Source: Roseovarius atlanticus
GTDB taxonomy: Bacteria > Pseudomonadota > Alphaproteobacteria > Rhodobacterales > Rhodobacteraceae
Direction: 5' to 3'
DNA: 64,000 nt
Assembly (NCBI RefSeq): GCF_001441615.1
Contig: NZ_LAXJ01000008.1
Location: forward strand, 186,001-250,000
The position numbers were made by a program, and so were the translations under genes. Every line of letters begins with the position of its first letter. The stretch's first letter is position 1. This document shows positions 11,331-55,295 of this stretch, piece after piece. The notes under the pieces were generated by a model, which did not search any database, was not told the DNA's origin, and saw only the letters and a list, made by a program, of their open reading frames with translations.

Positions 11331-12482
11331 TTATCCTTCGCTGAGGGGATGCGTGCCGACGATGCTGATGCCGTAGGCGTCGAGCCCGAGGTAGCGGGTC
11401 TTGGGGCTGTCGGTGACGAGGATCAGTTCGTGTACGCCCATGGTGGACATGATCTGGGCGCCGAGGCCCGTCTGCTTGATGGTGCGGGGCGTGTCGTCCT
11501 CTTCCATTTCCGAGGCGAGGGAGGGCCGGGGTTGGCGGAAGAGGAAGACGGCACCGCGGCCTTCGCGGGCGATAATGTTCATGGCGCGGGGCAGCTTGCC
11601 CGTGGGGCCCGCAGCGCTGGCCTCGAGGCCGATGCCCAGCACGTCCTCGAGCGCGTTGAGCGCATGGGTGCGGGCGAGCACCGGCTTGCCGTCGGTGATG
11701 TCGCCCTTGGACAGTACCACGTGTTCGGTATTGGTGATCTGGTCGGCGAAGATGCGCATGTCCCACGTGCCGCCGTGGGAGGAGGTGACGGTTTCGCGCC
11801 GGACCTCGCGCACGAGATTGTCGTGCTTGTGGCGGTAGGCGATGAGGTCGGAAATGGTGCCGATCTTCATGCCGTGGGCCTGCGCGAATTCCACGAGGTC
11901 GGGGAGGCGGGCCATGGTGCCGTCTTCCTTCATGATCTCGCAGATCACGCCGGACGGGTTGAGGCCGGCGAGGCGCGAGATGTCCACGGCGGCCTCGGTA
12001 TGGCCGGCGCGCACCAGCACGCCGCCGTTGCGGGCGCGCAGGGGAAAGACGTGGCCCGGCGTGGCGATATGGGCCTGGGTGTTCTGTTCGTTGATCGCGG
12101 TCGCGATGGTCAGGGCGCGGTCGGCCGCCGAGATGCCGGTGCTGACGCCCTCGCGCGCCTCGATGCTGACGGTGAAGGCGGTTTCGTGCCGCGACGAGTT
12201 GTTGACGGCCATCATGGGCAGGCCGAGGCGGTCGATGCGTTCCGATGTCATGGGCAGGCAGATGAGGCCCTTGCCGTGGGTGGCCATGAAATTGATCACC
12301 TCGGGCGTGGCGAATTCGGCGGGGATCACCAGGTCGCCCTCGTTCTCGCGGTCCTCGTGGTCGACGAGGATGAACATGCGCCCGGCACGCGCCTCGGCGA
12401 TGATCTCTTCGGTGGGAGAGATCGCGGAGCGCAGCTCGGCCTCGACGGGACCGGGTTTTTCGAAGGCTTGGGTTTCGGACAT
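11331..12482 (-). CDS. ribB: 3,4-dihydroxy-2-butanone-4-phosphate synthase with degenerate GTP cyclohydrolase II domain
   Basis: A 383-residue protein. Residues about 20-220 form an intact DHBP synthase: DHEDRENEGDL with acidic metal ligands, MTSERIDRLGLP, and HTEAAVD. The C-terminal half resembles RibA, but the zinc-binding cysteine block (normally a CLTGD...CDCG pattern) reads LARTHALNALEDVLGIG here, without Cys, so GTP cyclohydrolase II activity is most likely lost. Hence ribB is preferred over ribBA. It makes the four-carbon precursor for riboflavin. No FMN riboswitch is apparent in the 70-base gap upstream. Followed directly by ribH. Confidence 0.93.
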   Translation of the reverse strand: MSETQAFEKPGPVEAELRSAISPTEEIIAEARAGRMFILVDHEDRENEGDLVIPAEFATPEVINFMATHGKGLICLPMTSERIDRLGLPMMAVNNSSRHETAFTVSIEAREGVSTGISAADRALTIATAINEQNTQAHIATPGHVFPLRARNGGVLVRAGHTEAAVDISRLAGLNPSGVICEIMKEDGTMARLPDLVEFAQAHGMKIGTISDLIAYRHKHDNLVREVRRETVTSSHGGTWDMRIFADQITNTEHVVLSKGDITDGKPVLARTHALNALEDVLGIGLEASAAGPTGKLPRAMNIIAREGRGAVFLFRQPRPSLASEMEEDDTPRTIKQTGLGAQIMSTMGVHELILVTDSPKTRYLGLDAYGISIVGTHPLSEG

Positions 12483-12552: not shown

Positions 12553-13815
12553 TTATGGCGCGCGGCTGACGGGTTCGCCGTTTTCCGTTCGGGAAAAGAT
12601 GGCGATTCGGCGGTGTGCAATCGGCGACGGCCGGAACTTGACGGAAAAGCTGCCGAATTCGTCTACGAGCCGGACAAGCGCGGCTGAGGTGAATACGAAG
12701 GTCTGGTCGATCTTACGGCTGCTGACGCCCATCAAGGGCAGATCGTCCAGCCCCGCCGGAATTTCCCCGAGGCGGTTGAACTTGGGATCAGAGAGCAGGG
12801 GAAATTCAATGATCAGGCGGTTGAGCGTGAGGGCACAGGCCTTTTTGAGGAAACCCCGTACGTCATCCACGTGGTGCAGGACATTCAGTGCCAAGACGTC
12901 ATCGAACGGGTCGAGGTCGCTGACCGAGAGGAAATCGACATTGCGAAACTCTACGCTGCTATGGAGCAGTTGGGCGAAGGTCCTGGCCGCGGCAAGACGA
13001 TGTTCCTTGACGTCCAGGCCCAAGAGCCGCGTGGCACCGAACCGTTCGTAGCAGTAGAGCATTTCGCCCATTGCGCAGCCGATATCCAGTACCGAGCCGT
13101 TGACGAGCGAGCCTTCGCGGAAAGCATCGAAGCTTTGGTGCCGCGGCCCGTTGGTGTGCGTGTGACCGCCGACACCGGATTGCCGCCCCGCGGGAAGCCG
13201 GATCGCTTGGTATTCGGCACCGGCCTGGTTCACGACGCTTTCGATCCAGTCGGGATCGGGGCGGGGAATGAAGGTCCCGCGCAAAGCCGCGTGAGCGAAA
13301 CAGCGATCGGTCTCTGCCATGTCACCGGGGTGTTTTTCGGAATTGAACACTACGCGATAAGGAATACTACTGTCCTCTAGCAGATCGAACAGGTCCTGGT
13401 AGATCGCAAAGAGATCAACGCTTGCCAAAATCCGTTGCCAGAGATCTGCGTTGTAGCTTGATGACGTGTCAAGCGTCGGCTCGATGAACTTGCGACGGGC
13501 GCTGCGCGCGTTGAGTTCCTCGAGCGGGGCGACGATTACCGTTGCCTCGGAGATGTGGCCGTCGTTCAGGAGTGTTTCCAGAAGCGGATCCTCGAGCAGG
13601 TTCCAAGTCGAGATGTCTTCGCCCTGCCGCAGCCTTCGGGGGGCGCAGAACAGCAGGTTGTAATGCAGCACGGAGCCCGGGGGAGGCAGATCTTCCGCAG
13701 AGTGTTGGAAGGCAAATGCGACATTGTCGGACCGCTGCGCCTCGATCCAGTGCGATTTGCCGCTGTTGGAGGGGCCGATCAGCAAATGTACCATTGTTTC
13801 GGTGCCGCTTTTCAT
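12553..13815 (-). CDS. P-loop NTPase domain fused to SAM-dependent methyltransferase
   Basis: A 420-residue protein with two recognisable parts. Near the N-terminus is a Walker A motif, GPSNSGKS at residues 14-21, in a region with mixed strands and helices up to about residue 200. A class I methyltransferase follows, with motif I DIGCAMGE at about 244-251, an acidic residue ending strand 2 (LGLDVK), and DDVLALNVLHHVDD in the motif IV region. The substrate is unknown. A shorter start at Met8 is possible. It lies upstream of ribB on the same strand. I do not know a named family with this architecture; a P-loop kinase or sulfotransferase-like modifier coupled to methylation is speculation. Confidence 0.75.
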   Translation of the reverse strand: MKSGTETMVHLLIGPSNSGKSHWIEAQRSDNVAFAFQHSAEDLPPPGSVLHYNLLFCAPRRLRQGEDISTWNLLEDPLLETLLNDGHISEATVIVAPLEELNARSARRKFIEPTLDTSSSYNADLWQRILASVDLFAIYQDLFDLLEDSSIPYRVVFNSEKHPGDMAETDRCFAHAALRGTFIPRPDPDWIESVVNQAGAEYQAIRLPAGRQSGVGGHTHTNGPRHQSFDAFREGSLVNGSVLDIGCAMGEMLYCYERFGATRLLGLDVKEHRLAAARTFAQLLHSSVEFRNVDFLSVSDLDPFDDVLALNVLHHVDDVRGFLKKACALTLNRLIIEFPLLSDPKFNRLGEIPAGLDDLPLMGVSSRKIDQTFVFTSAALVRLVDEFGSFSVKFRPSPIAHRRIAIFSRTENGEPVSRAP

Positions 13816-14002
13816 TTGTATCCGTGTCGGTTCGGTTTGCCACCCTTACCAAAGCGGCGCGCCGGACGTAACACAGATCCTCGGATGCAGAACCCTTAAC
13901 GCCCACGCGTCGCAGGGTGAAAAGACTTATTAGCCGCTGGTGCCCCTTGAGGAAAGAGGCTGATGTGCTAGTCTTAAGGTCACCGCGCAAGGGAGTAGTT
14001 CA

Positions 14003-14338
14003 ATGCCCAAGCTCATCCGGATGTATATCGTGAACGTCGCCATCGGCTTTGGCCTTGCGGCGGTGTTCGTGGGGATGCTCTTGTGGTTCAATATCGCCAA
14101 CCTGTGGCACTTGGTCAGCCATTCCGACAAGGGCTGGCTGGCGGTTCTGCTGCTGTGGGTGTCGAACGGGATCGTGTTTGCGGGCGTGCAGTTCGGTATC
14201 GCGGTGATGCGGATGAAGGACGATGACGACGATGACGGCCCCGGTGGCGGATTGCGTCAGCACGTGATGCGACCGGATTACGCGCCGATCCCGGTGCGGG
14301 CGGATCAGGGCGAGCGTCCGTTCTGGAGCAAGCGGTAG
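14003..14338 (+). CDS. Conserved two-helix membrane protein
   Basis: A 111-residue protein with two hydrophobic helices (about residues 8-30 and 44-68) followed by an acidic run of six Asp and a basic cytoplasmic tail ending in FWSKR. GGGAG lies eight bases before the ATG. It is alone on its strand. The family has no name known to me; it looks like a small inner-membrane protein conserved in Rhodobacterales. Confidence 0.75.
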   Translation: MPKLIRMYIVNVAIGFGLAAVFVGMLLWFNIANLWHLVSHSDKGWLAVLLLWVSNGIVFAGVQFGIAVMRMKDDDDDDGPGGGLRQHVMRPDYAPIPVRADQGERPFWSKR

Positions 14339-17748: not shown

Positions 17749-17825
17749 GCCGCCTTAGCTCAGTTGGTTAGAGCGCCTGATTGTGGATCAGGAGGTCCCC
17801 CGTTCGAGCCGGGGAGGTGGTACCA
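17749..17825 (+). tRNA. tRNA-His (GTG), without G-1
   Basis: A complete cloverleaf with encoded CCA. The acceptor is GCCGCCT/AGGTGGT, D stem GCTC/GAGC, anticodon stem CCTGA/TCAGG with loop TTGTGGA (anticodon GTG), and T stem CCCCG/CGGGG. The base before position 1 is T, position 73 is A, and position 1 pairs with T72 as a G-U wobble. The universal G-1:C73 pair is therefore missing, a known alphaproteobacterial oddity that is matched by an altered HisRS. Confidence 0.95.
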
Positions 17826-55211: not shown

Positions 55212-55295
55212 TGGTGGGCGACCTAGGAATCGAACCTAGCGTGCGTCTCCGCGAGGGAGTTACAGTCCCCTGCCACACCTTGCGGCCTGTCGCCC
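55212..55295 (-). tRNA. tRNA-Tyr (GTA)
   Basis: A class II tRNA on the minus strand with encoded CCA. Acceptor GGGCGAC/GTCGCCC, discriminator A, D stem GCC/GGC, anticodon stem GGGGA/TCCCT with loop CTGTAAC (anticodon GTA), a long variable arm (CGCGGAGACGCACG region) and T stem CTAGG/CCTAG. The total of 84 bases fits tRNA-Tyr. Confidence 0.95.

Follow-up and report, generated by a model that had tools for sequence, protein, structure and literature searches.

A rare gene of Roseovarius atlanticus predicted to encode a P-loop kinase-fold domain fused to a class I methyltransferase

The window, a stretch of 64,000 nucleotides from Roseovarius atlanticus (contig NZ_LAXJ01000008.1, positions 186,001 to 250,000), contains on its minus strand an open reading frame that encodes 420 amino acids from an ATG start (12553..13815). 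The initial annotation had described one protein with a Walker A motif, GPSNSGKS, and a later methyltransferase motif I, DIGCAMGE. Both were located, at residues 14-21 (13753..13776, minus strand) and residues 244-251 (13063..13086, minus strand). The Walker A motif lies in a putative P-loop kinase-fold domain of approximately residues 8-180 (13276..13794, minus strand), which was delineated from a structure model of residues 8-208, an alignment with adenylate kinases and a stand-alone relative found by profile comparison. Motif I lies in a predicted class I methyltransferase domain of approximately residues 220-410 (12586..13158, minus strand), and the open reading frame ends about 10 residues past it. 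A ribBA-type gene (11331-12482, minus strand) follows downstream on the same strand. The gene at 14003-14338 on the plus strand encodes a 111-residue probable membrane protein for which no Pfam or NCBIfam match was found at the limits used.

A search for other proteins with both parts yielded one further bacterium. In Marimonas lutisalis, also of the Rhodobacterales, a 419-residue open reading frame (L041:8956-10215) is 51% identical to the window protein over its whole length, identity being 48% for the N-terminal and 56% for the C-terminal half. Because this full-length relative exists in another genome, a mis-joined assembly was rejected as the source of the gene. Comparison of 408 aligned codons gave 62, 71 and 42% identity at the three codon positions, with dN 0.44 and dS 1.75 (NG86), and these values show purifying selection on the fusion protein. 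Because the homology of the relatives to the window protein starts at about residue 8, which corresponds to an ATG at 13794, the protein probably starts there and has 413 amino acids in reality.

The genomic surroundings suggest how the gene came to its present position. The neighboring gene at 14003-14338 is found in 29 of the 30 genus genomes searched, its own included. In 6 of 28 other genus genomes compared it is divergent from ribBA, as in the window, and in the remaining 22 ribBA is arranged otherwise or lies outside the stretch compared. The gap between the two genes is 161 to 269 bases in five of these six genomes and 886 bases in one, against 1520 in the window. In the closest sibling, G011, the neighbor protein is 95% identical, and the window matches this genome up to position 12580, with 123 of 129 bases as calculated from the score of the alignment, the match resuming at 13945. 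Between these points 1364 window bases (12581..13944) stand in place of 63 in G011, with approximate ends that depend on local alignments to the sibling locus L044. The last 28 bases of the open reading frame (12553-12580) align with intergenic DNA of G011, 24 of them identical as counted from the alignment. An end of the frame derived from sibling-like intergenic DNA would fit the Marimonas protein, which is without the C-terminal tail of the window protein.

Base composition is in line with a foreign origin. The fusion gene has a GC content of 0.594 and a GC3 of 0.72, whereas the means of 48 gene-like frames in the window are 0.649 and 0.819 (GC3 SD 0.055). No window frame longer than 1 kb has a lower GC3, though two shorter ones do. 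In Marimonas, too, the copy has a GC content of 0.594, within a locus of 0.647. No terminal repeats stood out at the insertion, no tRNA adjoins it, a simple scan gave no promoter-like site, and no integrase or transposase was recognized by eye among the open reading frames of 8-18.5 kb. The low GC content and the short gap of the close sibling at the same place indicate that the fusion gene is a horizontally acquired single-gene insertion. Judged by eye, the Marimonas copy is flanked by katG and an M20-type peptidase gene rather than by ribBA. Of 11 further loci, five (L083-L087) carry a related peptidase gene and lack both katG and the fusion gene within the stretch compared. Since the fusion gene appears to have been inserted next to ribBA and its Marimonas counterpart has other neighbors, the adjacency is incidental and has no functional meaning. 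The proximity to ribB in the initial annotation therefore stands as a position, in that a protein with a RibB domain and a poorly matching GTP cyclohydrolase II half does adjoin, but not as a functional clue. A role in riboflavin synthesis was considered and rejected because the gene is inserted and absent from siblings.

The 886-base gap mentioned above, in genome G006, holds a 177-residue open reading frame (L048:1994-2527) with no Pfam match at E <= 0.05, which by eye looks like a cupin or cysteine-dioxygenase-type protein. As a different gene occupies the same gap there, this intergenic slot beside ribBA may be permissive to single-gene insertions.

The two halves of the protein differ in how widely they are found. 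Matches to the N-terminal half were sought in samples that overlap (phylum, genus, family, class and order). With a profile, its own genome was the only one with a match at E <= 0.01 both among 398 genomes of the phylum sample and among 84 of the genus, the other 83 giving none. The family sample gave matches in 10 of 394 genomes including its own (E <= 0.1), of which Marimonas is clear at 4e-55 and eight are weak; the class sample gave 7 of 385 including its own (E <= 0.1), six of them weak. In the order sample 7 of 390 genomes matched, its own included (E <= 0.05); one, G1271, stands out at 2.4e-4, and five are weak. The weak matches in these family, class and order samples had E values of 0.007 to 0.09. 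Of two scans of genome contigs the first found nothing and the second Marimonas alone. The methyltransferase half is matched at E <= 1e-6 in 54 of 142 class genomes, its own included. When the full protein was used, the matches in 60 genomes, its own gene aside, fell within residues 210-389, and the best three look like UbiG by eye. Among 42 loci compared, no gene carries both motifs together except copies of the two known fusions.

The match in G1271 is a lone P-loop domain, in an open reading frame of 180 residues that leaves no room for a methyltransferase. Profile comparison relates it to the two fusion proteins with E 7e-9 over 107 columns, and it has the P-loop, an H-Y-N motif and both arginines of the putative lid described below. 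Judging from this sequence, the P-loop domain exists outside the fusion. A gene matched by Pfam Muramidase is located some 2.8 kb from the G1271 frame, and nearby frames look phage-like by eye, two of them without a Pfam match. A profile built from the three sequences (A4) matched 2 of 41 relatives of G1271, namely G1271 itself and G043 (E 0.009). The latter reads by eye as a Der-type GTPase and was dropped as a relative of the domain. The same profile matched none of 48 genomes in another class of the phylum, a zero that is uninformative.

Searches of phages, plasmids and viral contigs gave no confirmed relative of the N-terminal half. A tblastn search at E <= 10 found it in none of 50,697 phage or 72,556 plasmid records; at E <= 1 the lone P-loop protein likewise had no phage or plasmid match, and the Marimonas protein had no plasmid match at E <= 1e-4. 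Protein and alignment scans and one DNA pattern scan of the viral_contigs set gave no confirmed N-terminal relative. With the whole window protein, matches were obtained in 2 phage and 75 plasmid records, none of which extended across 80% of the query, and those listed start at residue 168 or later, mainly in the methyltransferase half. This half alone gave weak matches in 9 phage records. Taken together, the architecture is real, conserved and rare, and apparently mobile.

Assignment of the C-terminal half to the class I SAM-dependent methyltransferases is supported by five Pfam models above their cut-offs: Methyltransf_25 (39.3 bits, cut-off 27), Methyltransf_12 (38.9, 30), Methyltransf_11 (35.8, 21.2), Methyltransf_31 (32.5, 27) and Methyltransf_23 (30.2, 27). 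The strongest match covers residues 242-327 with E 1e-9. No NCBIfam model scored above cut-off for the window protein; the best scores belong to the methyltransferase half and are TIGR04290 with 36.6 bits and UbiG (TIGR01983) with 34.3 bits, yet these are far under the respective cut-offs of 300 and 102.95. In PHROGs the methyltransferase half also gave the best matches (window protein E 5e-4, Marimonas protein 1e-8), next to fragments restricted to the P-loop and further weak matches. In the whole-protein structure model the second half, where pLDDT is mostly below 50, matches the methyltransferase 7wdq_C (Z 6.7, rmsd 3.5, 102 aligned). A profile of the half matched 17 PDB sequences at E <= 0.001, among which four of WbdD rank last. 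The two strongest matches outside its own genome in the 142 class genomes were a protein that reads as UbiG (5e-12), whose gene is one of the three UbiG-like matches above, and L096 (7e-12). Of 15 loci from this search, two were read as long frames. Profile comparison gave 1e-13 for L096 and 3e-12 for the UbiG-like protein, which thus matches about as well. By these comparisons the methyltransferase half appears to be without a close family.

The protein at L096 (L096:1-2607, minus strand, genome G114) deserves a separate remark. It is an open frame of 990 amino acids, of which 869 were read, and it contains in one frame and in this order an APH-like kinase stretch, a methyltransferase, TPR and a glycosyltransferase of family 41. 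The APH match is weak (E 0.0012, under cut-off). The methyltransferase is 34% identical to that of the window protein over 112 columns and has the 'IIE' strand in common with it. L096 is perhaps another kinase-methyltransferase fusion, tied to glycosylation. As a pointer to glycan chemistry for the window protein its layout is a hint and no more.

The N-terminal half is more difficult to place. Pfam gave no match above cut-off in the first half of the protein; with this half alone AAA_33 (PF13671) reached 17.2 bits, below its gathering cut-off of 27 and for the P-loop only. A profile of the half searched against PDB sequences found nothing at E < 0.2, the matches above this value being mostly G proteins aligned at the P-loop, and ubiquitin. 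However, the Walker A motif is common to all three sequences (window, Marimonas and the lone G1271 domain). A GxxxxGK[S/T] motif arose in 99 of 20000 shuffles of the protein's own residues, and with its start within the first 25 residues in 5 of 20000. On the basis of motif conservation, the fold model with its alignments and the shuffling, a chance P-loop was rejected. Two other groups of residues are invariant in the three sequences. The H-Y-N motif (13657..13665, minus strand, residues 51-53) is at the end of a predicted strand, the third, where it would take the usual position of a Walker B or catalytic residue. Arg104 and Arg108 (13492..13506, minus strand) are located in and immediately past the helix after predicted strand four and may correspond to the lid of kinases.

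Structure prediction was carried out with AlphaFold2 from a two-sequence alignment and reached a pLDDT of 51 for the whole protein; for residues 8-208 alone it gave a pLDDT of 64 and a pTM of 0.67. By eye, the order of strands and helices in the latter model is that of a P-loop kinase. VIA-align placed archaeal adenylate kinases in all of the top ten rows for this model (Z 9.5 to 7.6), the best being 9r72_E with Z 9.5, rmsd 3.3 and 147 aligned residues. Of the 50 rows listed, 48 are kinases by title, including hCINAP, which we take to be a kinase. In the whole-protein model residues 6-169 again match adenylate kinases (6pk5_C, Z 8.6, rmsd 3.2, 138 aligned). Foldseek found no PDB match at E <= 0.001; among viral models it matched an 'AAA domain containing protein' (4.6e-4) and an uncharacterized protein (5.6e-4) to the N-terminal model. 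The initial annotation would have taken the GPSNSGKS match as chance if the N-terminal part lacked a nucleotide-binding fold. Folded alone, this half adopts such a fold in the model, with archaeal adenylate kinases nearest. A P-loop kinase fold for the N-terminal half is supported by these models but not certain, and our confidence in it is low to middling. The top fold match, the archaeal adenylate kinases (OdinAK, 9r72), extends over the whole domain, but the six OdinAK rows align with only 8-10% identity, and the window protein differs in having a fused methyltransferase and H-Y-N at the third strand.

The statement that no named family has this domain order was borne out for the libraries searched: no curated family in Pfam, NCBIfam, PHROGs or PADLOC describes the combination. 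It appears to be a new one, for which no curated cut-off is reached beyond those of general methyltransferase models. In the parts of the open-licence literature covered, no published fusion of a P-loop kinase with a methyltransferase was found, and searching by the name and chemistry of WbdD brought up no kinase-methyltransferase fusion other than WbdD itself.

In view of the above, several roles can be considered for the fusion protein. A conserved P-loop kinase-type domain joined to a methyltransferase is most simply read as an enzyme that would carry out two successive steps on one acceptor. The N-terminal domain would use ATP, or another NTP, to phosphorylate the acceptor, after which the SAM-dependent methyltransferase would methylate the same molecule, either at the new phosphate or at a neighboring hydroxyl. 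The acceptor would most likely be a sugar or glycan end, or else some other small hydroxylated molecule. The catalytic role of the kinase, the consecutive action on one substrate and the substrate class are all inferred. We consider this two-step mechanism possible and prefer it, though tentatively, with a chance below even. A parallel is offered by WbdD, the chain-length enzyme of the E. coli O9a O-antigen, which is described as phosphorylating a terminal mannose first and methylating the added phosphate afterwards (PMC3482155). WbdD and the window protein are alike in that a class I methyltransferase shares one chain with a kinase or kinase-type domain. In WbdD the order is methyltransferase, eukaryotic-type kinase and C-terminal coiled coil, and the enzyme acts in O-antigen synthesis (PMC3482155), whereas in the window protein the P-loop domain comes first, the methyltransferase last, and there is no coiled-coil extension. 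No glycan genes were recognized by eye among the open reading frames around the window gene or the Marimonas copy. The window protein perhaps works like WbdD, but with its different order, kinase fold and lack of a coiled coil it is not a member of the WbdD family.

If one acceptor is indeed phosphorylated and methylated, the same two-step chemistry would have been built from an unrelated kinase fold, and the fusion would be a sign of a new modification in Rhodobacterales, either methyl-phosphate or O-methyl. Otherwise the fusion gene remains a rare, accessory and apparently mobile one. A more far-reaching version would make the two fusions the first representatives of a distinct class of P-loop kinase-methyltransferases. 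These would cap small hydroxylated molecules or glycan ends by phosphorylation and subsequent methylation, would have arisen independently of WbdD and would move as a one-gene cassette among Rhodobacterales. This version seems unlikely to us.

Another option is that the P-loop half is a regulatory or assembly domain that binds nucleotide, which would make the protein in effect an ATP-gated SAM-dependent methyltransferase. Many P-loop kinases have a catalytic Asp at the end of the second strand. Where the second predicted strand ends, the three aligned sequences share neither an Asp nor a Glu, and the third strand has H-Y-N rather than Asp. Because of this missing acidic residue the domain might bind ATP without phosphorylating anything. 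The kinase titles of 48 of the 50 listed matches and the invariance of the lid-type Arg104 and Arg108 speak against this option, which we regard as doubtful.

The distribution of the gene could also be that of an accessory 'moron' gene spread by phage or mobile DNA and serving phage defense, counter-defense or surface modification. This would be consistent with the single-gene insertion relative to the sibling, the GC content of the gene in both hosts (0.594, with about 0.65 in its surroundings), its presence in 1 of 84 genus genomes and the location of the lone P-loop relative near a Muramidase gene. It agrees less well with the N-terminal half having no phage, plasmid or confirmed viral_contigs relative, and with the insertion showing neither terminal repeats nor a recognizable integrase or transposase in the open reading frames inspected. 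The sole match in PADLOC is mad2, to the methyltransferase part (E 5e-7 and 6e-8). Such a role is distinctly unlikely.

Modification of a nucleic acid end or a nucleotide, comparable to RNA repair by Pnkp-Rnl-Hen1, is suggested by some of the structural matches. In Foldseek the Pnkp1/Rnl/Hen1 complex takes the first three places (E 0.003 to 0.005), the polynucleotide kinase 4gp6_B matches the N-terminal model (Z 6.8, rmsd 3.1, 129 aligned), and Hen1 (3jwg) matches the full model (Z 6.4, rmsd 3.9, 88 aligned). However, 4gp6_B ranks below the adenylate kinases, with other polynucleotide kinases lower still, and the methyltransferase matches of the full model depend on the half with pLDDT mostly below 50. 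The Pnkp1-Rnl-Hen1 system is described as having a polynucleotide kinase and a methyltransferase, but as separate proteins together with a ligase (PMC4411300); the window protein is one fused chain without a Pfam match to a ligase, phosphatase or nuclease domain. Of ten window neighbors searched, six have an NCBIfam name, none of them for RNA repair, and four have none; one of these four is MmcB-like, which is DNA repair. Such an action on nucleic acid ends or nucleotides is quite improbable on this evidence. A sulfotransferase-type P-loop domain using PAPS is very improbable: 1cjm is among the full-model matches (Z 6.5, rmsd 4.0, 139 aligned) and a viral sulfotransferase comes fourth among the matches of the N-terminal model (E 0.005), but no sulfotransferase is among the 50 PDB rows listed for that model, and the complete Walker A GxxxxGKS of the window protein is to our knowledge not found in PAPS sulfotransferases.

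A few further features of the window were recorded. In the RibB protein (11331-12482) only the DHBP synthase half scores above cut-off; the GTP cyclohydrolase II half may be degenerate because it reaches 30 bits against a cut-off of 206. No FMN riboswitch was found in the window at the Rfam gathering score. A tRNA-Tyr called by ARAGORN at 55212-55295 (minus strand) is below the Rfam gathering score, and a tRNA-His at 17749-17825 reaches it.
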